A stretch of 64,000 nt of DNA from Amycolatopsis sp. EV170708-02-1 (GTDB taxonomy: Bacteria; Actinomycetota; Actinomycetes; Mycobacteriales; Pseudonocardiaceae): contig NZ_CP092497.1 in assembly GCF_022479115.1 (NCBI RefSeq), positions 9,486,001 through 9,550,000 of the forward strand, given 5' to 3'. Made by a program: the position numbers and the translations under genes. Each line of letters begins with the position of its first letter. Within the stretch, counting starts at the first letter, position 1. Below are positions 12,565 through 64,000 of the stretch, piece by piece. A model generated the notes under the pieces. The model saw nothing but the letters and a program-made list of their open reading frames with translations, was not told the origin of the DNA and did not search any database.

Positions 12565-12600
12565 GCAAGGGGGCTGTGCCGAACCGGCGATTTCGCTCGC

Positions 12601-12789
12601 GTGACCGGCCGGACGACGCACGTGATCAGCCGGACGACACGCGTGACTGGCTGGACGACATACGTGACTGGACGGACGACACCCGCGGTGGCGAGGCAGG
12701 CGGCGAGACGTCCGTCCAATCACGCGTGTCGTCCGGCTGGACACAGGTGTCGTCCGTCCTGTCACGGGTGCCGGCCATTCAGTCACGTG
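12601..12789. repeat. Array of 21-bp tandem repeats, two opposed blocks
   Basis: Four head-to-tail units of exactly 21 bases begin at 12601, 12622, 12643 and 12664. Each starts GTGA and contains GGACGAC. After a 24-base centre, a partial unit is followed by three 21-base units in the opposite orientation (12727, 12748, 12769) with the reverse-complement core GTCGTCC. The unit ends are kept and the middles vary. The array lies between the convergent pstB and phoU genes and has relatives at 41.5, 45.9 and 63.9 kb. Direct repeats are adjacent, with no spacers, so it is not CRISPR. Confidence 0.85.
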
Positions 12790-12838
12790 GGACGGCACCG
12801 TGGCGCAGGGCGGGGTGTGGGCCGGGGAGACGGCGAAA

Positions 12839-30694: not shown

Positions 30695-30740
30695 GTCGTG
30701 AGTGGCGAGGACGGTTCTAACCGTCCTTGCCACTCACGAC
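30695..30740. terminator. 22-bp hairpin between helD and the Lrp gene
   Basis: The arms 30695-30716 and 30719-30740 are reverse complements with one G-T wobble and a 2-base loop. The core is GTGAGTGGCGAGGACGG. It lies 13 bases after the helD stop and 10 bases after the stop of the convergent Lrp-type gene, so it probably ends both transcripts. Confidence 0.88.
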
Positions 30741-40182: not shown

Positions 40183-40214
40183 GAAGAGCCGGTCTCCGTG
40201 GAGACCGGCTCTTC
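40183..40214. terminator. 15-bp hairpin between csbD and tRNA-Ser
   Basis: GAAGAGCCGGTCTCC (40183-40197) is followed by its reverse complement at 40200-40214. It follows the CsbD gene stop by 11 bases and the tRNA 3' end by 4 bases, so it can serve both strands. Confidence 0.9.
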
Positions 40215-41453: not shown

Positions 41454-41457
41454 TTCG

Positions 41458-41529
41458 CGAGTTACGTCTCCAAGCACGCGAGATACGCCTTCGAGCACGC
41501 GAGTTCCGTCTCTGAGCACGCGAGTGCGG
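41458..41529. repeat. Three 21-bp tandem repeats
   Basis: Units begin at 41458, 41479 and 41500, each starting CGAG and ending CACG, and a fourth starts CGAGTGCGG at 41521 before decaying. The variable middle contains TACGTCT, TACGCCT or TCCGTCT. They start right after the LEH gene stop and lie between it and a convergent small membrane gene. They belong to the same family as the arrays at 12.6, 45.9 and 63.9 kb. Confidence 0.85.
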
Positions 41530-43414: not shown

Positions 43415-45880
43415 GTGACCACATCCCGACGTGCTGCCCGGAGACGAGCCCTGACCGTGGCCGTCGCCTCGGGCCTGGTCGTGAGCGGCATGACCGCTCC
43501 GGCCGCGCTCGCCGCACCCAGTGCCGACGCCGTGATCGCCGAGGTCTATGGCGGTGGCGGCAACTCGGGCGCCACGCTGACCAACGACTTCGTCGAACTC
43601 GCGAACCGTGGCGCGGCGGCGGTGAGCCTCGACGGCTTCAGCGTCCAGTACGCGCCCGCGTCGGGGAACAGCTGGCAGGTCACGCCGCTGACCGGCAGCG
43701 TCGCGCCGGGTGCGCGGTACCTCATCGCGCAGGCGAAGGGTTCGGGCGGCACGGTCGCGCTGCCGGCGCCGGACGCCACCGGCTCGCTGGCCCTGTCCGC
43801 GAGCGCCGGCACCATCGCGCTCGTCCAGGGCACCTCGGCGCTGACCTGCAAGACCGCCGCCGACTGCGCGGCCGACAGCCGGATCAAGGATCTGGTGGGC
43901 TTCGGCTCCACCGCCGTCATCCGTGAGGGGGCCGCGGCACCCGCGCCGTCCAACACCGCGTCCGTCGCCAGGGGCGCGACGCTCGCGGACACCGACGACA
44001 ACGCGGCCGACTTCACCTCCGGCGCGCCCACGCCGACCAACGGCAAGGGTGAGACGCCGGGCGAGACCGGCCCGCCGCCGGTCGACGCGAAGATCCACGA
44101 CATCCAGGGCACCACGCGGATCTCGCCGCTCAAGGACCGGAAGGTCGCCGGGGTCACCGGCGTCGTCACCGCGATCCGGAGCTTCGGTTCGGCGCGCGGG
44201 TTCTGGATCACCGACACCGCCCCCGACGCCGACCCGCGCACCAGCGAGGGCCTGTTCGTCTTCACCGGCTCGACCACGCCCGCCGTGGCCGTCGGCGACG
44301 CGGTGACCGCCGCGGGCACCGTCCGCGAGTTCTACCCGGACGCGCCCGCGACCTCGCCGTACCAGTCGCTCACCGAGCTGACGAGTGCACAGTGGACGGT
44401 CCAGTCGAGCGGAAACGCCTTGCCCGCCCCGACCGTCGTCACGCCGGACACGGTGCCGGACACCGTCGCCCCCGCGCCGGGCGGCAGCATCGAGCCGTTG
44501 CCGCTGGAGCCCGCGAAGTACTCGCTGGACTTCTGGGAGACGCACGAGAGCGAGATCGTCAGCGTCTCCGACGCGCGCGTCGTCGGCCCGACATCGTCGT
44601 ACAACGAGCTTTACGTGACCACCAAGCCTAAGCAGAACCCGAGCGTCCGCGGCGGCGCGGTGTACCTGGACTACGACCGGCTCAACACCGGCGTGCTCAA
44701 GGTCGCTTCGCTGGTCCCGTTCGCCCAGCAGCCGTTCCCGAAGGTCAACACCGGCGACGTGCTCACCGGCGAGACCTCCGGCCCGGTCGAGTACAGCAAC
44801 TTCGGCGGCTACACGCTGTTCGCGACGAAGCTGGGCGCCGCCAAGGACAACGGGTTGCAGCGCGAGAGCACCCGCGCTCAGCGCAGTGGCGAGCTTTCCG
44901 TGGCGACGTACAACGTCGAGAACCTGTCCGCTTTGGACAGTGCGGAGAAGTTCGGCGAGCTGGCGAAGGCCGTCGTCGGCAACCTGGCGAAGCCGGACAT
45001 CCTGAACCTGGAAGAGATCCAGGACAACAACGGGCCCACCAACGACGGCACCGTCGCCGCCGATCAGACGTTGCAGAAGTTCGTCGACGCGATCGTCGCC
45101 GCCGGTGGCCCGCGCTACGAGTGGCGCCAGATCGACCCGGAGAACGGCAAGGACGGCGGCCAGCCCGGCGGCAACATCCGCGTCGGCTTCCTGTTCAACC
45201 CTGCCCGGGTGTCCTTTGTGGACCGCGAGGGCGGCGACGCGACCACCCCGGTCGGCGTGGTCAAGGAACGCGGCAAGACCCACCTGACCGTCTCGCCCGG
45301 CCGCGTCGAGCCCGGGAACGAGGCGTGGGAAGCCAGCCGCAAACCGCTGGCCGGCGAGTTCGTCTTCAAGGGCCGCACCGTGTTCGTCATCGCGAACCAC
45401 TTCAACTCCAAGGGCGGCGACCAGCCGACGCACGGCCGCAACCAGCCGCCGGTCCGGAGTTCCGAGGTGCAGCGGGCCAAGCAGGCGACCGTGCTCCGTG
45501 GCTTTATCGACAAGCTGCTCGCTTCGGACAAGAACGCGAACATCGTCGTGGCCGGCGACCTGAACGACTACCCGTTCTCGCCCGCCGTGCAGACGCTGAC
45601 CGCCGGTGGCGCGCTGAAGGACCTCATCGCGTCGCTGCCCGAGAATGAGCGGTACAGCTACGTTTTCGAGGGCCAGTCGCAGGTGCTCGACCACATCCTG
45701 GCGTCGAAGGCGCCGCGCGGGCTCGACTACGACGTCGTGCACCTGAACGCCGAGTTCGCGAAGCAGGCGAGCGACCACGACCCGCAGGTTCTGCGGTTCC
45801 GGCCGAGCGCGGGCAACCCGGTCCAGGACGCGTTCTGGGACCTGGCGGACTACCTGGAGAGGGTTTTCGGCAAGCTGTAG
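43415..45880 (+). CDS. Secreted ExeM/NucH-type nuclease with a lamin-tail domain
   Basis: An 821-residue exported protein. After the signal peptide (cleavage near ALA-APS) comes a lamin-tail domain (about 38-195, IAEVYGGGGNSGATLTNDFV). Next is an OB-like region (about 225-350, VTGVVTAIRSFGSARGFWIT), then an endonuclease/exonuclease/phosphatase domain (about 490-805). Catalytic motifs are TYNVENLS, LNLEEIQDN, FVIANHFNSKGGD, GDLNDYP and SDHDPQVLRF. It probably degrades extracellular DNA. It starts at GTG 43415. Confidence 0.92.
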   Translation: MTTSRRAARRRALTVAVASGLVVSGMTAPAALAAPSADAVIAEVYGGGGNSGATLTNDFVELANRGAAAVSLDGFSVQYAPASGNSWQVTPLTGSVAPGARYLIAQAKGSGGTVALPAPDATGSLALSASAGTIALVQGTSALTCKTAADCAADSRIKDLVGFGSTAVIREGAAAPAPSNTASVARGATLADTDDNAADFTSGAPTPTNGKGETPGETGPPPVDAKIHDIQGTTRISPLKDRKVAGVTGVVTAIRSFGSARGFWITDTAPDADPRTSEGLFVFTGSTTPAVAVGDAVTAAGTVREFYPDAPATSPYQSLTELTSAQWTVQSSGNALPAPTVVTPDTVPDTVAPAPGGSIEPLPLEPAKYSLDFWETHESEIVSVSDARVVGPTSSYNELYVTTKPKQNPSVRGGAVYLDYDRLNTGVLKVASLVPFAQQPFPKVNTGDVLTGETSGPVEYSNFGGYTLFATKLGAAKDNGLQRESTRAQRSGELSVATYNVENLSALDSAEKFGELAKAVVGNLAKPDILNLEEIQDNNGPTNDGTVAADQTLQKFVDAIVAAGGPRYEWRQIDPENGKDGGQPGGNIRVGFLFNPARVSFVDREGGDATTPVGVVKERGKTHLTVSPGRVEPGNEAWEASRKPLAGEFVFKGRTVFVIANHFNSKGGDQPTHGRNQPPVRSSEVQRAKQATVLRGFIDKLLASDKNANIVVAGDLNDYPFSPAVQTLTAGGALKDLIASLPENERYSYVFEGQSQVLDHILASKAPRGLDYDVVHLNAEFAKQASDHDPQVLRFRPSAGNPVQDAFWDLADYLERVFGKL

Positions 45881-46047
45881 CGAGGTACGTCCTCAAGCAC
45901 GCGAGTCGTCCGTTCGATCACGTGTGTCGTCCGTCCAGTCACGAGTGCCCTCCATCGAGTACGCGTGCCTGGAGGCGTAACTCGCGTGCTTGGAGGGCGC
46001 ACTCGCGTGCTTGGAGGCGTAACTCGCGTGCTTGGGGGCGTGACTCA
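45881..46047. repeat. Array of 21-bp tandem repeats, four forward and four reverse
   Basis: Forward units start at 45881, 45902 and 45923 (21 bases each, CG[A]G...CACG), with a 20-base fourth at 45944. Four reverse units follow at 45964, 45985, 46006 and 46027, each CGTGC...ACTC[G/A] with core TTGGAGGCG. The reverse units are nearly identical, the forward ones more diverged. The array starts directly at the nuclease stop codon and ends 5 bases before the stop of the convergent gene 46053. Confidence 0.88.
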
Positions 46048-46052
46048 AGGGA

Positions 46053-46424
46053 TCAGGAGCGTTTGGCCCGCCAGCCCAGGGAAAGCACCGCCTGCACGAG
46101 TTCCTGGTAGCTCGGCTTGACCTCTTCCAGGTACTTCTCCAGGTACCCGGCCCGCGCGGTCGGCACCGGGCGCGGGTCTTCGTCCTCTGGCAGCCAAGAG
46201 AGGCCTTCGACGTTGTGCTGCGCCATCTTCCACCAGCGCGTGCACCGGTCGACGGCGCGCTGCTCGCGTTCGGCGGCGTCCGCGACGGCCTGGTGCGCCT
46301 CGGCGAGCCGGGCCTCCAGTTCGTCCGCGCGGCCGATCTCCCAGTTTCGGAGGTTCTCCGCCGAAGCGCGCGCGAGGCCGACGATCTCCTTGTACCGCAT
46401 GGCCGCGGTGATGCCGTCATCCAT
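46053..46424 (-). CDS. Helical hypothetical protein of the FtsK-like cluster
   Basis: A 123-residue protein, predicted to be mostly helical: a long amphipathic segment (ENLRNWEIGRADELEARLAEA and on to about 65), then CTRWWKMAQHN, a proline-rich turn (PEDEDPRPVP) and a last helix. There is no signal or membrane segment. Its ATG overlaps the end of the FtsK-like gene by 8 bases, so it belongs to the same operon. I do not recognise the family. Confidence 0.7.
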   Translation of the reverse strand: MDDGITAAMRYKEIVGLARASAENLRNWEIGRADELEARLAEAHQAVADAAEREQRAVDRCTRWWKMAQHNVEGLSWLPEDEDPRPVPTARAGYLEKYLEEVKPSYQELVQAVLSLGWRAKRS

Positions 46425-49158
46425 CGAGAAGCCCTTCCGGACGCTGGAACGGGATGATCACCTCAGGGGCGCCGTGGGTGGTGCGGTCGAAGAACAGCGC
46501 GCGCCCCGGCCGCGGTGACCAGTGCACGACCTGCCCGGCGGCGAACGGCGACAGCTCGTTGCCCTGGACGTCCAACGCCGCCCAGGATCCGATGTCGTCG
46601 GTGCCGGCGAAGCCGAGCGTGTCCTTCAGCCGGGCGATGCTGCGCCACCAGCCGATGGTGTGGACGCCGTGTGTCGGGCCCTGCTTCAGCAGCACCCGCA
46701 ACTGATCCAGACCGCTCTTGAGCTGTCCGGGAGCCTTCGCTTCCAGTGCGGGGATCGACGCGTCGACGCCGTACAGCAGCAGCACCTGTGCTTTGTCCAA
46801 AGAGGACAGATTCTCCGCGATATCGATTACCCGGGCGGGCAGATCGTCGACCAGGGTCGCCTCGTGGCCTTCCGAGCGCAGGCGGTCGGCCAGCTCGGCC
46901 ACGGCGGGGACGGACGCTTCGATGGGGCACGAGAGCACGAACTCCACCGAGCCGTGCGGATGCTGGCGGGCCAGCGAACGCGCGGCGGAGTCCATGATGG
47001 ACAGTGCTTCGGCCGTGGCCGCGCCGAGGACGGCGACGTTCCGCCCCGGTGCCTTCGGCAGCTCGACCCCGCAGGCGGCCTCGTCGACGTCGATGGACTG
47101 GCCGAGCAGCGCCCGCGGTTTGTCCGTCGGCTTGAGGTCGGTGAACGCCGGGAACTGTTCCAGCACCGGGGAATGCGCCCCGTCGAACAGCCTCGGCCGC
47201 TTGAACGACTCCGAATACCGCTCCCAGAGCCGGTGCTGCAGCTTGTTGAAGACGTCCTTGCTGCTCGCGTCCGGAACGTGGGCGAGCTGGTTCCCGTGCG
47301 CCACCCCGGAATCATGGTTGATCACCGCGTGCCACTTCGGCGCCGAGACGGCCGCGTTGTTGGTCTCGGACAGTACCCGCCGCGCCTTCGGCATGGCGAT
47401 CCGCAGCGTGCACTGCTCGAACACCGCCGGTTTGCCCCAGAAGGCCTCGATCCCGGCGACGTCCTGGCTCGCCAGCACCAGGTGGATGCCCTGGGACCGG
47501 CCTCGCCGCGCGATGTCCTCCAGCAGCTGGGTCGCGGTCGCCGTCACGCCGTCGCGGCCGGCGAACAGGTACTGGAACTCGTCGATCACCGCGACGATCC
47601 GCGGCCAGTGCCCGCCGGGGTCCTGTTCGCGCAGGTCCGCGAGGTTGGTGACCTCGTGCAGTTTCGCGGCGGCGGACCGGCGGCGCAGCTCGTCGGCGAG
47701 GTAGCGCAGCAGCGCCAGGCCGAACTCGCGGTCGGTGTTGACGTTGACCCCGATGAGTTTGGCGTGCGGCAGCCAGCTGGCGTCCCGCCGCCCCGGCGCG
47801 AGCCCGGCGAACGACACGCCTTCCTTGAAGTCCAGCAGGTACAGCGCGAGCTCGTCCGGCGAGTACCGCGCCGCGAAGCTGCCGAGCAGCGAATACAGGA
47901 AGTTCGTCTTGCCGGAACCGCTCGGCCCGCCGATGAGCACGTGCGGGCTGGCGTCGCCGATGACGACCTCCACCGGCTCGCCCTCGAAGAATCCGACCGG
48001 CGCCCGCAGCTCCCGCGCCGAGCTCTCCTTGCCCAGCTCGGTGGGCAGGAGGTCGGCGAACGCGCGCGGCCCGCCCTGTTTGGCGATCAGCGCCTCGGCG
48101 ATCCGCCCGGCGGCGCGGATGACCTGCCCGGACGGCATCGGCGGGTCGAGGTCGACGATCAGGTCGGGGCCGGTCATGCTGCTCGTCGCGCGCCGCTCGT
48201 CGTGCAGGCTCAGCGATTCGACCGACGTCGACAGCATGGTCGGCACGTCGATCAGGATCAGGCAGATCCCGGCCGCGAGCGCCCCGGTGGCGACCCGTTT
48301 CAGTTCGCGGGCGCGCTCCGGTTCGAGGGTTTCGCCGTTGCCGTAGAGCACCGCGACGCGGAACGGTTCGACGCGCTGGCCGCTCGCCCGCCGGATCTCC
48401 CGCAGCGACGTGTGCCCCGCCTGCATCCCGGTCGCGTGGATGCGGCGGATGTGCCCGGCCAGTTCGTCGAGGAGGTCCTCGAGCCGTCCCGGGTCGTACA
48501 GGGTGAGCGCGCTGGTGCGGCTCAGCGGGTACAGGTCGGGCAGGATCGCGGTCAGCTGCCCGACGTCCCACAGGTGGACGCGCACGGCGCCGGGTTCGAA
48601 CGTGCTCAGGATCCGCATCAGCAGGTTCTGCACGATGCCGTCCACCGCGGCCCTGGTCTTCGGCGCCGACGTGATGGACAGATGCGACTCGTCGAGCAGG
48701 GGGACCGCGACGTCGAAGGTGCGCGGGACGTCCTGGCCCGGCACGGTCGCCGAGCCGACCCGCCACAGCCCGGGCGCGGTGATGCCGGGATTCCCGCCGA
48801 CGCGGCCGAGCCAGTTGCCCGGCTGCTGGCTCGCGGGCCCCGGCGCGTTGTTCGCGACGAGTTCGCGCAACGCGTTCGGGCCCGCTTCCCAGTCGGCGTA
48901 GAACTGGCCGCGCACGCTGCCCAGCAGGCCGAACACCTCGTTCGCGGCGGGATGCCGCGACCATTCGGTGTACTGCTCCGAGGTGGAGTTGTTCATCCCC
49001 ACCCGGACGATGTGCTGTTCCAGCTGCAGTTTGGCCAGTTCCGCCTCGGCGGCTTGGCGGGCGCCGGCGGCGGCGCCGAGGACGAGCCCGATCTGGTGCC
49101 GGACCCGTTCGAGCGCCGTGGCGACGCGATTGCGCTGTTCACTCGCTTTGCTGCCCAT
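46417..49158 (-). CDS. Soluble FtsK/SpoIIIE-like (EccC-like) tandem ATPase
   Basis: A 913-residue ATPase without a membrane segment. Residues 1-50 form a coiled coil. Three ATPase-like modules follow. The first (about 150-340) has RVHLWDVGQL but no P-loop. The second (about 395-620) has intact Walker A GGPSGSGKTNF at 410-420, Walker B IVAVIDEFQYLF at 521-532 and sensor VLASQD. The third (about 700-900) has a degraded P-loop, VLGAATAEALS. Three modules with mixed activity recall the EccC motor of type VII secretion, but here the membrane part is missing. Three small helical proteins are encoded with it. Function is not known; protein or DNA translocation is an inference. Confidence 0.88.
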   Translation of the reverse strand: MGSKASEQRNRVATALERVRHQIGLVLGAAAGARQAAEAELAKLQLEQHIVRVGMNNSTSEQYTEWSRHPAANEVFGLLGSVRGQFYADWEAGPNALRELVANNAPGPASQQPGNWLGRVGGNPGITAPGLWRVGSATVPGQDVPRTFDVAVPLLDESHLSITSAPKTRAAVDGIVQNLLMRILSTFEPGAVRVHLWDVGQLTAILPDLYPLSRTSALTLYDPGRLEDLLDELAGHIRRIHATGMQAGHTSLREIRRASGQRVEPFRVAVLYGNGETLEPERARELKRVATGALAAGICLILIDVPTMLSTSVESLSLHDERRATSSMTGPDLIVDLDPPMPSGQVIRAAGRIAEALIAKQGGPRAFADLLPTELGKESSARELRAPVGFFEGEPVEVVIGDASPHVLIGGPSGSGKTNFLYSLLGSFAARYSPDELALYLLDFKEGVSFAGLAPGRRDASWLPHAKLIGVNVNTDREFGLALLRYLADELRRRSAAAKLHEVTNLADLREQDPGGHWPRIVAVIDEFQYLFAGRDGVTATATQLLEDIARRGRSQGIHLVLASQDVAGIEAFWGKPAVFEQCTLRIAMPKARRVLSETNNAAVSAPKWHAVINHDSGVAHGNQLAHVPDASSKDVFNKLQHRLWERYSESFKRPRLFDGAHSPVLEQFPAFTDLKPTDKPRALLGQSIDVDEAACGVELPKAPGRNVAVLGAATAEALSIMDSAARSLARQHPHGSVEFVLSCPIEASVPAVAELADRLRSEGHEATLVDDLPARVIDIAENLSSLDKAQVLLLYGVDASIPALEAKAPGQLKSGLDQLRVLLKQGPTHGVHTIGWWRSIARLKDTLGFAGTDDIGSWAALDVQGNELSPFAAGQVVHWSPRPGRALFFDRTTHGAPEVIIPFQRPEGLLDG

Positions 49159-54266: not shown

Positions 54267-57077
54267 ATGATCTGGAACCGGGTACTCGTCGCACTGTCCG
54301 TTTCGCTCCTGCTTCTCCCCGGATGGGTGGGCGCTCCGGAAGCGACCGGAGCGCCCACTCTGCCGTCCGGCTTCGTCCTGCGTGACCAGCCGAGCGGCCA
54401 GGCCGCGTTCGACCTGACCGATTTCGCCTATCTGCCCGACGGTTCCGTGCTCAGCATCGGCAAGAGCGGCAAGGTCGCCTGGGTGCCGGTCACCGGCCCG
54501 GCCAGGACGATCGCGAACCTTCCCGTCCACGACGACGGCGACCTCGGGCTCGTCGGTCTCGCCATCGCGCCGGACTACGCCACGTCACGCCGGATCTACC
54601 TCACGTGGTCGTTCGACACGGGCGGCGGCGCGTTCACCATGCGGGTGGCGCGCTGGACGGTGACCGGCACGGACGTCCCCACCGGTCTCGCGAACGAACG
54701 GGTGCTCGTCGAGCTTCCCGGGTTCTACGACGTCCACGGCATCACCGGGCTCGTCACGGCGCCCGACGGCACGTTGTGGATCTCCATCGGCGATGCCGCC
54801 GACTTCACCAGGATGGATCCGGGCGCGTTGCGCTCGCTCGACCTCGATCAGCTCTACGGCAAGATCCTGCACGTCACTCCGGACGGAGCCGGTGTCCCCG
54901 GCAATCCGTACTACTCCGCCGCGGCCCCGGACGCCAATCGCTCCAAGGTCTTCTCCAGTGGTTACCGCAGCCCGTTCCGGTTCTCCCTCGACCCGCGGCT
55001 CGGCCTGCCCGTAGTGGGCGACGTCGGCTGGAACACCTGGGAAGAGGTGGACGTCGTGCGGCCGGGGGCGAACCACGCCTGGCCCTGCTGGGAAGGAAAC
55101 GCGCCCACGCCGGGGTATTCCGGGCTGGCGGGCTGTGCCGGGGTGGTCAACACGCCGCCGATCACCGCGTACCACCACGGTTCCGGCGCCGATGAAGGCA
55201 ACAGCGTCACCGCCGGGATCGTCTACAGTGGATCGTCCTATCCGGACGAATACCGGGGCGCCTTCTTCTTCGGTGACTATGTCACGCAGAAGATCTGGAC
55301 GATGACGTACGACAGCCAGGGCAGGCTCGTCCGGGCACCGGAGCGGCCGCCGGAGTTCACCGGCGTCGGCGGGCCGGTCAAATTCGCGGCCGCGGCCAAC
55401 GGCGACATCGTCTTCGCCGACATCCACACCGGCAACCTGCGGCGGCTCAGCTACCCGGGGACGAACGCGGAACCGGTCGCGGTGGCGACGTCGAGCACCG
55501 AGCCGTCGACGAGGACGGTGACCTTCGACGGCGGCGGTTCCTACGACTTCGACGGCGATCCGCTGACGTATCACTGGGAGTTCGGCGACGGCACGAGCCA
55601 GACCGGCGTCCGCGTGACCCACGCCTACGGCACCGAGTTCACGCGGGCGACAGCGCGGCTCACCGTCACGGACCGTCTCGGCGCCTCCGGCGGCACGGAT
55701 GTCGTCGTGGTGCCGGGAAACCGTTCGCCGGAACCGGTGATGACGGATCCCGGCACTCGGACGTTCGCGGTCGGGGAACCGGTCACCGTCGAGGTGACGG
55801 CGACGGACGCGGAGGACGGCGTGCTGCCGGTCTCGTGGACCACGCTGATCCGGCATTGCCCGGAGGAGGCGACCTGCCACGCGCACCCCGGCTCGCCGGG
55901 CAGCGGACCGGCGTTCACCGTGCCCTTCACCGACCACCAGGACTCCCGCGTCGAGATCACCGCGTCGGTGACCGACAGTGCCGGGGTGACGGCGAGCAGG
56001 ACGTACGTCGCCATGCCGCGTGAGCACCGGTTGACGCTGACCGGCACCGTGCCCGCGGCGTTGAGCATCCCGGCCGAGGGCGGCGTCAGCACCGCGATGG
56101 TGACCGAAGGCGCGACGTTCGAGGTCGTGGCGGAGGAGATCGCTGCGGACGGCGTCTCGACGTTCTCGAACTGGTCCGACGGGCGGACCTCGCGCACGGT
56201 GACCGTCACCGTTCCGGGGAACGACCTGACCCTGACGGCGAACTACCTCACCCCGATCGACAAGCGCTACCAGGCGGAACCCGCGCTGCGGCAACGGCTC
56301 GGCGCGCCCGTCGGGCCCGAGGTCGCCGACGGGACCGTGCGCTACCGGCCGTACGTGAACGGCAGGCTCTACTGGAGCGCCGAGACCGGCGTGAAACAGA
56401 TCGAGGGCGAGATCCTCAAGAAGTACCTCGCGCTGGGCGGGCACCGGAAGTTCGGGCCGCCCGCGACCGACGAGACCGGCACCCCGGACGGCATCGGCCG
56501 CTACAACCACTTCCCGAACCGGCCCGGCACGATGCAGGCTTCGATCTACTGGACTCCGTCGACCGGCGCGCATCCGGTGTACGGGCGGATCCGGGTCAAA
56601 TGGGCGGCGCTGGGCTGGGAGGCGGGCCCGCTCGGCTACCCCACGACCGACGAGCTCCCGACACCCGACGGGGTCGGCCGGTACAACCACTTCAGCAAGA
56701 AGGCGTCCATCTACTACACGGTGCCGACCGACGCGCACGCGATCTGGGGCCGCATCCGGGTCCGGTGGGAGGCGCTCGGCTGGGAGACCGGCCCGCTCGG
56801 CTACCCCACCACGGACGAGTCCGCCACGCCGGACGGTGCCGGCCGCTACAACCACTTCACCAAGGCGGGCTCGATCTACTGGACGATGGCCACCGATTCG
56901 CACGCGATCTACGGCGCGATCCGGCAGCGGTGGGCCGCGCTCGGCTGGGAGCGGTCGTACCTGCGCTACCCGGCGACGGACGAGTTCGGCATCCCCATCG
57001 GACGGCAGAGCAGCTTCCAGAGCGGCTACATCACCTGGAACCGGAGCACGGGGCAGGTGATCGACCGACGGTGGTGA
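54267..57077 (+). CDS. Secreted sugar-dehydrogenase-like protein with PKD and LGFP repeats, copy 1
   Basis: A 936-residue secreted protein. After the signal peptide (to about residue 28) comes a glucose/sorbosone dehydrogenase-type beta-propeller (30-395; DVHGITGLVTAPDGTLWIS holds the conserved His, also GYRSPFRFSLDP). A PKD domain follows at about 403-470 (YDFDGDPLTYHWEFGDGTS), then a beta-rich linker. Four or five LGFP repeats complete it (from 665 on; GYPTTDE-type blocks) and end in DRRW. LGFP repeats are thought to bind cell-wall polymers. The next gene is a close paralogue. ATG 54267 follows GGGGAAG. Confidence 0.9.
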   Translation: MIWNRVLVALSVSLLLLPGWVGAPEATGAPTLPSGFVLRDQPSGQAAFDLTDFAYLPDGSVLSIGKSGKVAWVPVTGPARTIANLPVHDDGDLGLVGLAIAPDYATSRRIYLTWSFDTGGGAFTMRVARWTVTGTDVPTGLANERVLVELPGFYDVHGITGLVTAPDGTLWISIGDAADFTRMDPGALRSLDLDQLYGKILHVTPDGAGVPGNPYYSAAAPDANRSKVFSSGYRSPFRFSLDPRLGLPVVGDVGWNTWEEVDVVRPGANHAWPCWEGNAPTPGYSGLAGCAGVVNTPPITAYHHGSGADEGNSVTAGIVYSGSSYPDEYRGAFFFGDYVTQKIWTMTYDSQGRLVRAPERPPEFTGVGGPVKFAAAANGDIVFADIHTGNLRRLSYPGTNAEPVAVATSSTEPSTRTVTFDGGGSYDFDGDPLTYHWEFGDGTSQTGVRVTHAYGTEFTRATARLTVTDRLGASGGTDVVVVPGNRSPEPVMTDPGTRTFAVGEPVTVEVTATDAEDGVLPVSWTTLIRHCPEEATCHAHPGSPGSGPAFTVPFTDHQDSRVEITASVTDSAGVTASRTYVAMPREHRLTLTGTVPAALSIPAEGGVSTAMVTEGATFEVVAEEIAADGVSTFSNWSDGRTSRTVTVTVPGNDLTLTANYLTPIDKRYQAEPALRQRLGAPVGPEVADGTVRYRPYVNGRLYWSAETGVKQIEGEILKKYLALGGHRKFGPPATDETGTPDGIGRYNHFPNRPGTMQASIYWTPSTGAHPVYGRIRVKWAALGWEAGPLGYPTTDELPTPDGVGRYNHFSKKASIYYTVPTDAHAIWGRIRVRWEALGWETGPLGYPTTDESATPDGAGRYNHFTKAGSIYWTMATDSHAIYGAIRQRWAALGWERSYLRYPATDEFGIPIGRQSSFQSGYITWNRSTGQVIDRRW

Positions 57078-57165: not shown

Positions 57166-59988
57166 ATGCCTTCGAGATTCCGTGCGCTCTGTCACGCCCT
57201 CGTGACGTTGCTGATAGTGACCTTGCTGGTGCCGTTGACGTCCACCTCGGCGTCCGCGGCGCCGGTGCTGCCGCCTGGCTTCGTCCTGCGTGACCAGCAG
57301 AGCGGGCAGGCTCCATACGACCTGACCGACTTCGCCTACCTGCCCGACGGCTCGATGCTGACCACCGGGAAGCAGGGCAACGTCGCCTGGGTGTCCACCA
57401 CCGGGCAGACCCAGAGCATCGCCACCCTGCCGGTGCGCAGCAGCGGTGACCTCGGCCTGGTCGGCATCGCGATCGCGCCCGACTACGTCACCTCCCGCGC
57501 GATCTACACGGCCCGCGCGGTCGACGTCGCCGGCGGTGGGATCGCCCTGCGCGCCTCGCGCTGGACGGTCACCGGTACCGCCCAGCCGACCGGGCTGACC
57601 GGCGAGAAGGTGCTCATCGAGGGCGCCGCCAACACCGACATCCACGGCATCACCGGTGTCGTGGCCGCCCCCGACGGCACGGTGTGGGTCTCGACCGGCG
57701 ACAGCTCCCGGTTCCAGGGCGCGGCCGACCCGTTCGCGCTCAACGTGTACGACCTCGACAAGATCTTCGGCAAGATCTTCCACATCACCGCGGACGGTGC
57801 GGGCGTTCCCGACAACCCGTACTACTCCGCGGCGAACCCGAACTCCTTGCGCTCCAAGGTGTTCGCGAGCGGCTTCCGCAGCCCGTTTCGGTTCAGCCTC
57901 GACGCCAGCACCGGCCTGCCGGTGGTCGGCGACGTCGGCTGGGGCACCTGGGAAGAGATCAACTTCGTCCAGAAGGGCGCGAATCTCGGCTGGCCCTGCT
58001 TCGAGGGCAACCAGCCCGCGGACGGCTTTTCCGCGATGCCGCAGTGCGCTTCGGCCGTGAACACCCCGCCGATGCTGGCGGTCCGCCACGGGCAGGGCGT
58101 CGACAACGGCAACAGCATCACCGCCGGCATTGTCTACAATGGAGAGTCCTACCCCGAGGAATACCGGGGCGCGTACTTCTTCGGCGACTACGCCACCCAG
58201 AAGCTCTGGACGGCCAAGTACGACACGCAGGGCCGTGTCGTCCGCCCGCAGGAGACGCCGCCGAAGTTCACCGGTATCGGTGGTCCGGTCAAGTTCCTGG
58301 CCGCGGCCAACGGCGACATCGTCTACGCCGACATCTACAGCGGTCTGCTGCGACGGCTCAGCTACACCACCGGGAACAAGGCGCCGGTCGCGGTCGCCAC
58401 TTCCGAAACGAACCCCGAAACCCGCACGGTCACCTTCGACGGCAGCGGCTCGTACGACTTCGACGGCGACCAGCTGACCTACGAGTGGGACTTCGGTGAC
58501 GGCACCACCGGCACCGGTGCGAAGGTCAGCCACACCTACGCGGCGGGCACCGAGAAGTTCACCGCCAAGCTCACGGTGAAGGACGGCCTTCAGGCGTCCG
58601 GAAGCACGGACATCGCCGTGGCGCCCGGGAACCATTCGCCGAAGCTGACCATGACCGACCCCGGTGAGCGCCTGTTCGCCGTCGGCGAGGAGGTCAAGGT
58701 CGGCGCGACCGTGACCGACGCCGAGGACGGCGCTCTCCCGGTCACCTGGACCACCCTGGTCCGGCACTGCCCCGAGAACGCGGTCTGCCACGCGCATCCG
58801 GACCAGAGCGGCACCGGAGCCGAGTTCGCCATGCCGTTCACCGATCACACGGACTCCAACCTGGAGTTCACCGCGACGGCGACCGACAGCGCCGGCGTCA
58901 AGGTTTCGAAGACCTACATCGCTAAGCCGCGCGAGCACCGGCTCACGCTGACCAGCAACGTCGCCGCGGCGCTGGGCATCACGCCGGAAGGCGGGGCCTC
59001 GTCGGCGATGGTGGTCGAGGGCGCGAAGGTGGAGATTCAGGCGGCCGAGGTCGCTTCGGACGGCGCGTCGACCTTCACCGGCTGGTCGAACGGCGCGACC
59101 GGGCGGCTGACCGAAATCACCATGGGCACCACGGATCTGACGATCACGGCGAACTACATCACCCCGATCGACAAGCGCTACCGCGACGAACCCGCGCTGG
59201 CGCAACGACTCGGCGCGCCGACCGCGCCCGAGGCCGTCGACGGCACGGTCCGCTTCCGCACCTACGAGCGCGGGCGGCTGTACTGGTCGAAGGACACGGG
59301 CGTGAAGCAGATCGAGGGCGAGATCCTCAAGAAGTACCTCGCCCTGGGCGGCCACAAGGAATTCGGTCCGCCCGCGACCGACGAGATGACGACGCCGGAC
59401 ACCATCGGCCGCTACAACGACTTCCCGGTGTGGCCCGGAAAGATGCAGTCGTCGATCTACTACACGGTGAACACGGGCGCGCATCCGGTGTTCGGCCGGA
59501 TCCGCGTGAGGTGGAAGGCGTTGGGCGCGGAGGCCGGTGAGCTCGGCTACCCGACCACGGACGAGGGCATCACGCCGGACCGGATCGGCCGCTACAACCA
59601 CTTCAGCAAGAACGCGTCCATCTACTACACGGTGCAGACCGACGCCAAGGCGATCTGGGGCCGGATCCGGGTCAGGTGGGAAGCGCTCGGCTGGGAGGCG
59701 GGGCCCTTGGGGTACCCGACCATGGAAGAGACGAAGACACCGGACGGGATCGGCCGGTACGTCCACTTCACCAAGGCGGGCTCGATCTACTGGACGATGC
59801 AGACCGACGCGCACGGGGTCTACGGGGCCATCCGGCAGCGTTGGGAAGCGCTCGGCTGGGAGAACTCCTACCTGAGGTACCCGACCACCGACGAGATGGC
59901 CGTCACCGGCGGGCGGCAGAACAACTTCCAGGGCGGTTACGTGTTCTGGAACGCCTCCAACGGTGCGGTGACCGACCGCCGCTGGTAA
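57166..59988 (+). CDS. Secreted sugar-dehydrogenase-like protein with PKD and LGFP repeats, copy 2
   Basis: A 940-residue paralogue of the upstream gene with the same order of parts: signal peptide (cleavage near ASA-APV), sugar-dehydrogenase-like propeller (DIHGITGVVAAPDGTVW), PKD domain (YDFDGDQLTYEWDFGDGTT), beta-rich linker with the paired cysteines RHCPENAVCHAHP, and LGFP repeats (GYPTTDEGITPDRIGRYNHF). The end is again DRRW. The pair probably arose by tandem duplication and then diverged throughout. Cofactor and substrate are unknown. Confidence 0.9.
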   Translation: MPSRFRALCHALVTLLIVTLLVPLTSTSASAAPVLPPGFVLRDQQSGQAPYDLTDFAYLPDGSMLTTGKQGNVAWVSTTGQTQSIATLPVRSSGDLGLVGIAIAPDYVTSRAIYTARAVDVAGGGIALRASRWTVTGTAQPTGLTGEKVLIEGAANTDIHGITGVVAAPDGTVWVSTGDSSRFQGAADPFALNVYDLDKIFGKIFHITADGAGVPDNPYYSAANPNSLRSKVFASGFRSPFRFSLDASTGLPVVGDVGWGTWEEINFVQKGANLGWPCFEGNQPADGFSAMPQCASAVNTPPMLAVRHGQGVDNGNSITAGIVYNGESYPEEYRGAYFFGDYATQKLWTAKYDTQGRVVRPQETPPKFTGIGGPVKFLAAANGDIVYADIYSGLLRRLSYTTGNKAPVAVATSETNPETRTVTFDGSGSYDFDGDQLTYEWDFGDGTTGTGAKVSHTYAAGTEKFTAKLTVKDGLQASGSTDIAVAPGNHSPKLTMTDPGERLFAVGEEVKVGATVTDAEDGALPVTWTTLVRHCPENAVCHAHPDQSGTGAEFAMPFTDHTDSNLEFTATATDSAGVKVSKTYIAKPREHRLTLTSNVAAALGITPEGGASSAMVVEGAKVEIQAAEVASDGASTFTGWSNGATGRLTEITMGTTDLTITANYITPIDKRYRDEPALAQRLGAPTAPEAVDGTVRFRTYERGRLYWSKDTGVKQIEGEILKKYLALGGHKEFGPPATDEMTTPDTIGRYNDFPVWPGKMQSSIYYTVNTGAHPVFGRIRVRWKALGAEAGELGYPTTDEGITPDRIGRYNHFSKNASIYYTVQTDAKAIWGRIRVRWEALGWEAGPLGYPTMEETKTPDGIGRYVHFTKAGSIYWTMQTDAHGVYGAIRQRWEALGWENSYLRYPTTDEMAVTGGRQNNFQGGYVFWNASNGAVTDRRW

Positions 59989-59999
59989 GCGGTAAACGT

Positions 60000-60050
60000 C
60001 CGTGAGGGCCTCCTTCCCTACCTTCGAAGTAGGGAAGGAGGCCCTCACGG
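60000..60050. terminator. 21-bp terminator hairpin
   Basis: The arms 60000-60020 and 60030-60050 are exact reverse complements. The loop itself contains CTTCGAAG. It lies between the second sugar-dehydrogenase-like gene (stop 59988) and the convergent 3-hydroxyacyl-CoA dehydrogenase gene (stop 60062), so it should serve both. Confidence 0.92.
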
Positions 60051-63888: not shown

Positions 63889-63904
63889 TGCGGCTCGCTT
63901 CACG

Positions 63905-64000
63905 CGTGATCCGGCGGCCGACTCGCGTGCTCAGCCGGACGACACGCGTGATGGAACGGACGACACGCGTGTGGTTCCGTTCCGCCGCCGTGCCGTCCGC
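63905..64000. repeat. 21-bp tandem repeats at the window end
   Basis: Units start at 63905, 63926 and 63947, each CGTG...[AC]ACG or ACTCG, and a fourth starts CGTGTGG at 63968 and degenerates. Their orientation equals the second block at 45.9 kb. The array begins 16 bases after the stop of the oxidoreductase gene. It may continue outside the window. Confidence 0.8.

Follow-up and report, generated by a model that had tools for sequence, protein, structure and literature searches.

Inverted arrays of 21-bp units at gene ends in Amycolatopsis: a dispersed family that is probably a two-way stop signal for transcription

Little is known about transcription termination without U-tracts in high-GC actinobacteria, or about the means by which these bacteria separate convergent genes. 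In E. coli, Ju and co-workers reportedly described bidirectional terminators between convergent genes, ordinary short hairpins with U-tracts on both sides; in them, as is proposed for the arrays reported here, one hairpin serves both strands. The uptake-sequence terminators of Neisseria and Haemophilus are inverted pairs of a dispersed sequence that serves DNA uptake; they are single pairs and, unlike the arrays, are not known to form a tandem lattice. Short inverted repeats are also concentrated at E. coli gene ends, where part of them are intrinsic terminators, although the available part of that study describes no dispersed lattice family (PMC6060812). Moreover, poly-U has been reported not to be necessary for intrinsic terminators. 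The U-less hairpins and hairpin clusters concerned resemble the arrays in that they follow soon after stop codons, and they differ in that neither a repeated sequence family, nor 21-bp phasing, nor an exchange of families is described in the part of the article available to us; the word "convergent" is absent from its main text (PMC8355165).

The REP, BIME and REPIN elements are known in GTAG and CGTC superfamilies, with 5-13-bp stems whose GTAG or CGTC tag stays unpaired; the GTAG REPs are tied to transposases and have G-T pairs in their stems, and the roles proposed for REP elements are termination, mRNA stability or gyrase binding (accessible part of PMC3733652). According to the same portion of that source, they are, like the arrays, dispersed extragenic palindromes with opposed units, found after genes or between convergent genes and unevenly among species (PMC3733652). 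The arrays share the extragenic position near 3' ends, apart from overlaps with called genes in 5 of 63, and are unlike REP elements in that 21-bp units stand head to tail in register, with up to 17 joints (L127) and no G-U excess. Inverted 21-bp arrays in Amycolatopsis or other Pseudonocardiaceae were described in none of the literature matches listed, judged by titles and abstract openings and with subscription journals thinly covered. We take the array to be a real, abundant and patchy element that belongs to a known broad kind, the 3'-end hairpins, and takes an unfamiliar, phased form, with a putative function read from position and predicted fold.

The array lies in a stretch of 64,000 nucleotides of Amycolatopsis sp. 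EV170708-02-1 (contig NZ_CP092497.1, positions 9,486,001 to 9,550,000), which we call the window and on which all coordinates are counted (Table 1). As an earlier note on this DNA stated, it fills the interval that separates two convergent genes; the stop codon of the + gene ends at 45880 and that of the - gene begins at 46053. Its seven scored joints follow one another at steps of 21, 21, 20, 21, 21 and 21 bp, with units scored F F R R R R, and TRF, unprompted, returned a period of 21 at 45894-45947 and 45962-46046, in agreement with the head-to-tail arrangement with one 20-bp step that had been described. The same note had counted four forward and then four reverse units; the forward half does precede the reverse half, but the forward units are not uniform and start with TGTG and AGTG besides CGAG. 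RNA folding of the two strands is predicted to yield -97 and -78.5 kcal/mol, with z scores of -7.25 (+) and -5.98 (-) and none of 200 shuffles equalling either strand. The array mirrors itself less well than most others do (ungapped inverted-repeat score 13). For the second array of the window, the fold z score is -7.65 (12596-12800).

Table 1. Arrays, hairpins and flanking genes of the window (positions count from its first letter)
Feature	Position	Strand	Remarks
Inverted array, 21-bp period, FR order	45881..46047	.	spans gap between two convergent genes
Forward arm	45881..45959	+	first unit B-like (by eye), rest A-type; joints 45898, 45919, 45940
Reverse arm	45960..46047	-	B-type units; joints 45960, 45981, 46002, 46023
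Endonuclease/exonuclease/phosphatase with lamin-tail domain	43415..45880	+	left convergent gene; Pfam PF03372, PF00932; gene call
123-aa protein	46053..46424	-	right convergent gene; without Pfam match; relatives adjoin orthologous junction
FtsK/SpoIIIE-family protein	46417..49158	-	upstream of 123-aa gene; PF01580; bait for orthologous junctions
Second 21-bp array, 8 joints, RF	12596..12791	.	between convergent ABC-transporter and PhoU genes (Pfam)
Third array, three joints, F units throughout	41456..41525	+	convergent gap, right behind LEH/SnoaL-like gene
Fourth array, four joints, all units scored R	63901..63971	.	12 bp past gene ending 63888; right neighbour beyond window
Non-array hairpin, GTGAGTGG...CCACTCAC family	30695..30740	.	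between convergent genes
Non-array hairpin, GTGAGGGCCTCCTT type	60000..60050	.	between convergent genes
Simple hairpin	40183..40214	.	convergent junction; conserved, slightly altered, in 10 of 11 close relatives

The window array is a member of a family dispersed throughout the genome and not a product of chance. The two-joint pattern CACGNGNG-N13-CACGNGNG gave 234+221 matches in the 9.66-Mb genome, against 12+12 in a backwards-read control, and an array finder, which expects steps of 20-22 bp and chains steps of 41-43 bp, returned 80 pieces in a chromosome sample of 2.864 Mb (2.8 Mb fetched in blocks, plus the window), against 5 pieces each in reversed and complement-only controls; the genome-wide 21-base periodicity that the earlier note had staked its proposal on is therefore present. 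The 80 pieces merged into 63 arrays, or about 212 per genome by extrapolation. Distances between joints, measured in the first 1.664 Mb for both same and opposite orientation, peak at multiples of 21. A stricter form of the joint, CACGCGWG, matched 140+138 times in this genome; none of 97 further genomes drawn from the class had more than one match on a strand, and any such match at all occurred in 5 of the 98, the window's own included.

The 218 units occur in both orientations, and their middles, which had been described as variable between conserved joints, fall mostly into two families, type A (approximately TCGTCCGTCYGAT, 107 units, with CGTC in the middle and within the predicted stem) and type B (approximately TTACGYCTCCAAG, 98 units), with 13 others. 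When runs of like units are collapsed, 38 of the 63 arrays read RF, 4 FR, 11 R, 9 F and one RFR, so that the F-then-R order of the window array is that of a minority (4 of 42 simple two-arm arrays). What had not been noted before is that the two halves act as inverted-repeat arms. Arm identity was 0.725 in the 27 arrays (of 63) that have two clean arms, each with two or more units, against 0.450 when arms were swapped between arrays (0 of 2000 shuffles). Permuting units within an array lowered it only to 0.699 (p 0.021), so the match comes mainly from the use of one unit type per array and mirror order adds little. Most arrays are thus built so that transcripts of both strands are predicted to form a long hairpin: RNAfold, run without shuffles on the 38 arrays of the first sample, mostly gave one long hairpin, and none for the short or one-armed arrays.

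The position of the arrays relative to genes, which we called with our own script and without annotation, is strongly biased. By class, 33 of the 63 lie in convergent gaps, 23 in tandem gaps and one in a divergent gap, five overlap a called gene (two with convergent and three with tandem neighbours) and one stands at a block edge, edge arrays being excluded from the tests. Classified by neighbours, the 62 others divide into 35 convergent, 26 tandem and 1 divergent, whereas the 1154 background gaps of at least 60 bp comprise 214 convergent, 653 tandem and 287 divergent. The convergent excess suspected from the single locus is borne out genome-wide (35/62 vs 214/1154, Fisher p 1.5e-10; 33/57 and p 1.9e-10 without the gene-overlapping arrays), together with a depletion of divergent gaps (1/62 vs 287/1154, p 9e-7). 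The median distance from an array to the nearest gene 3' end is 29 bp, against 861 bp to the nearest 5' end. In a second genome (G287), 12 arrays from 29 first loci on one contig were 8 convergent, 1 divergent, 1 inside a gene and 2 at edges. The 32 merged places with periods of 19-22 or their doubles at the named loci were 14 convergent, 9 tandem, 5 divergent and 4 edge, for a background of 113 convergent, 328 tandem and 138 divergent gaps.

We then compared the junction itself among relatives, fetching 74 loci through the FtsK neighbour. In 11 close Amycolatopsis the junction could be aligned, with flanks 90-98% identical, and all 12 junctions, the window included, carry an element, drawn from four unrelated families. 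Three of them hold a 21-bp array, namely the window, A. keratiniphila and A. roodepoortensis, and the latter two have a GCGTGAAGGCCCCC hairpin next to it; this hairpin stands alone in A. azurea (1/12), a GTCCTCT...GCGGTA family with its variants occupies six and a GCAATCAGTCACC family two, one of them A. decaplanina. Simple hairpins without a lattice thus replace the array in 9 of the 11 relatives, an exchange that goes beyond the earlier note. By contrast, the simple hairpin of the 40171 junction is kept in 10 of 11, and at the 41453 junction arrays are found in the window and in 4 of 9 aligned relatives, two of the 11 being unaligned. A family of about 200 copies that is swapped for unrelated hairpins at one junction amounts to a natural experiment, with two genes and four end elements. 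More distant relatives are mixed, some junctions having no hairpin. Among the 28 of 74 loci kept for a gap of 0-650 bp (those above 650, below 0 or with a missing neighbour were dropped; at 23 further loci more than 650 bp separate the two genes, and the gap of L135 is -5), a strong hairpin is absent at L114, L138 and L162 (gaps 45, 42 and 35), and the hairpin of L115 is weak by eye. In Saccharomonospora, a 21-bp array with a seemingly related unit (GCGAGTYG... type, by eye) lies at the orthologous junction of L149-L151, with a fold z score of -14.6 in L150, and L145 has a junction hairpin without the 21-bp lattice.

Position, a fold predicted on both strands and the exchange with lattice-free hairpins weigh more than the evidence for other roles. 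For this reason we favour, with slightly more confidence than doubt, the reading of the array as a dispersed bidirectional 3'-end hairpin without a U-tract, exchanged between families; as such, it would probably be a two-way stop signal for transcription. The strong hairpins of this genome in general, which include repeated families, speak for this reading by their place: of 316, there are 150 in convergent gaps, 111 in tandem gaps and 13 in divergent gaps, while 41 lie inside genes and 1 at an edge. Among the options offered in the earlier note, an RNA end structure or transcription barrier is thereby the best supported, while a phased binding site keeps the support of rigid spacing and helical quantisation discussed below. 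The nascent RNA of whichever gene is read would form the hairpin, which would halt RNA polymerase, protect the RNA 3' end, or both, and a single element could in this way serve both convergent genes and limit antisense RNA between them. The arms may grow as 21-bp units are gained and lost. Template switching at joints that are nearly palindromic (CACGCGTG, CTCGCGAG) may add to this growth and would hold the lattice in register across the centre. Compared with a canonical intrinsic terminator, the arrays have the predicted stable hairpin after the stop codon and lack a U-tract directly after the stem: TTTT within 10 nt past the best stem occurs in none of the array gaps (12 tandem, and 28 convergent on both sides), and the T fraction after the stems is 0.197 and 0.185. 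A hairpin predicted on both strands between convergent genes is, on the other hand, what a bidirectional terminator has. If the arrays do terminate transcription, they could furnish strong two-way terminators for the engineering of antibiotic producers. Selection on RNA only would give an excess of G-U over A-C pairs in the sense strand, and its absence in the 44 arrays scoring at least 12 (13 vs 26 in tandem, 37 vs 41 in convergent arrays) and in other tandem hairpins (20 vs 20) therefore argues against such selection. Likewise, the rigid 21-bp lattice goes beyond the needs of a hairpin and hints against a pure RNA role. The missing U-tracts, the 21-bp steps, the arm distances and the lack of G-U bias are as compatible with a DNA-level role, or with template switching as their origin, as with an RNA role.

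Alternatively, the arrays could be REP-like or selfish hairpin DNA without function, persisting for the most part in harmless places behind stop codons. Several dispersed hairpin families in one genome, grouped by blast into clusters of 143 (surely a mixed one), 41 and 17 members, are what tolerated repeats would look like. So is the patchiness of the arrays. In a scan of 297 genomes of the bacterial family, the two-joint pattern was patchy; within the genus, 17 of 26 genomes (the window's own included) were clearly above control, with at least 23 forward matches, and 9, with at most 11, were not, and a few other genera exceeded their controls (most clearly G090, G128, G144, G160, G133 and G209, weakly G020). 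The missing hairpins at some orthologous junctions point the same way, as do the 72 of 157 convergent gaps (60-400 bp) without an element at the threshold used. Gaps with 0, 1 and 2 elements numbered 72, 74 and 11, where Poisson expectation is 85, 52 and 20 (p 1e-4), as if one element excluded another; however, the effect is confined to gaps of 60-150 bp (p 3e-6) and vanishes where there is room for two (150-400 bp, p 0.32; 200-700 bp, p 0.68), so that lack of room explains it and mutual exclusion is rejected. The same objection of room applies to the hairpins found in 5 of 21 array gaps vs 64 of 136 other gaps (p 0.059). Because exclusion fails in wide gaps, our confidence in a 3'-end element fell slightly, to just above even, and functionless repeats became slightly less unlikely. 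What keeps them unlikely is the occupancy of one junction in 12 of 12 close relatives by four families, as well as the density of arrays, which is higher in convergent gaps (35 per 73 kb) than in tandem gaps (26 per 252 kb), the latter including promoters. Moreover, no known mover is at hand: the REP-type Y1 transposase PF01797 had 0 matches at E 0.001 in this genome, with a profile search that rings in 5 of 14 known genomes, E. coli among them, and REP elements mobilised by a RAYT are rejected on this ground.

A role at the DNA level is an unlikely but coherent alternative: a nucleoid protein, gyrase or another dimer would sit on palindromic joints every two helical turns and act as a roadblock, a supercoil sink or a domain boundary between convergent genes. 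It draws on the spacing, since joints up to 35 bp apart stand exactly 21 bp from each other in 188 of 210 adjacent pairs despite 600 substitutions in the middles of these 188 units. The distances between arms cluster near 30, 40-45, 51-53 and 62-64 bp, with one at 84, close to multiples of 10.5-11 bp (Rayleigh p about 1e-4 at 10.5 bp and 4e-5 at 10.75-11; 18 unique loops, 41-43-bp steps left out, 13 periods tried), and periodicity at 21 bp was not significant in the same loops and trials. The missing G-U bias and the polarity of the arms (RF 38 vs FR 4) are in keeping with such a site, and other genera retain the CACGCGNG joint and the 21-bp step with different middles, in a joint-pattern search that is biased towards this outcome. 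Nevertheless, lattice-free hairpins stand in for the array in 9 of 11 close relatives, the finder itself expected 20-22-bp steps, so that the spacing is partly ascertained, and recent duplication of units may account for its rigidity. Periods of 19, 20 and 22 also occur in some relatives. At the named loci, period 21 is the commonest among 113 non-coding TRF arrays (36, followed by 42 with 11), a period that also equals seven codons, and some of these arrays look like uncalled coding repeats. A further reading, again of little probability, is a helically phased barrier at convergent gene ends, in which a putative protein along the joint lattice would separate head-on transcription at the DNA level, the RNA hairpins of the sister species being interchangeable means to that end.

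Finally, a ladder for RNase III, which acts on overlapping transcripts and would cut these, or the hairpin, at 21-bp steps to tune mRNA decay, is very improbable: long duplexes are predicted on both strands and the period is near two turns, but two turns of A-form RNA take about 22-23 bp and G-U bias is lacking. A CRISPR-like array is ruled out by the middles, 205 of 218 of which fall into two families and in both orientations, and no Cas family was found by Pfam in the 8 neighbour proteins scanned; a coding repeat is likewise ruled out, the window array having weak overlapping ORFs only. No Rfam model reached its gathering score in 45000-47000 of the window, where a microRNA match stayed below threshold (27.6 vs 268 bits).

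Purine polarity of the 5' arm was considered as a general trait and rejected, other hairpins not sharing it. The GTGAGTGG-AGGACGGTT hairpins, to which that at 30695-30740 belongs, form a very uniform family, with 41 members counted in the 2.864-Mb sample and 27 of these in convergent position; their outer end resembles an array joint by eye and several arrays are bordered by members of this family. An array seems to have been duplicated locally at G000:C1:345309-345878, where about 520 bp separate two nearly identical array pieces. The window also contains 165-bp tandem repeats at 56562-56951 and 59575-59887, the second within a called gene, with an ALGWE...GPLGYPT-like motif (by eye) that we take to be akin to LGFP-type wall repeats. 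In Amycolatopsis anabasis (L137:5223-5747), several arrays of similar look have a 19-bp period and lie in gaps called divergent, and in Kibdelosporangium persicum (L156:12086-12500) an array of 22-bp period, with 9.9 copies in its main stretch, takes up a whole convergent gap downstream of an FtsK-like gene.
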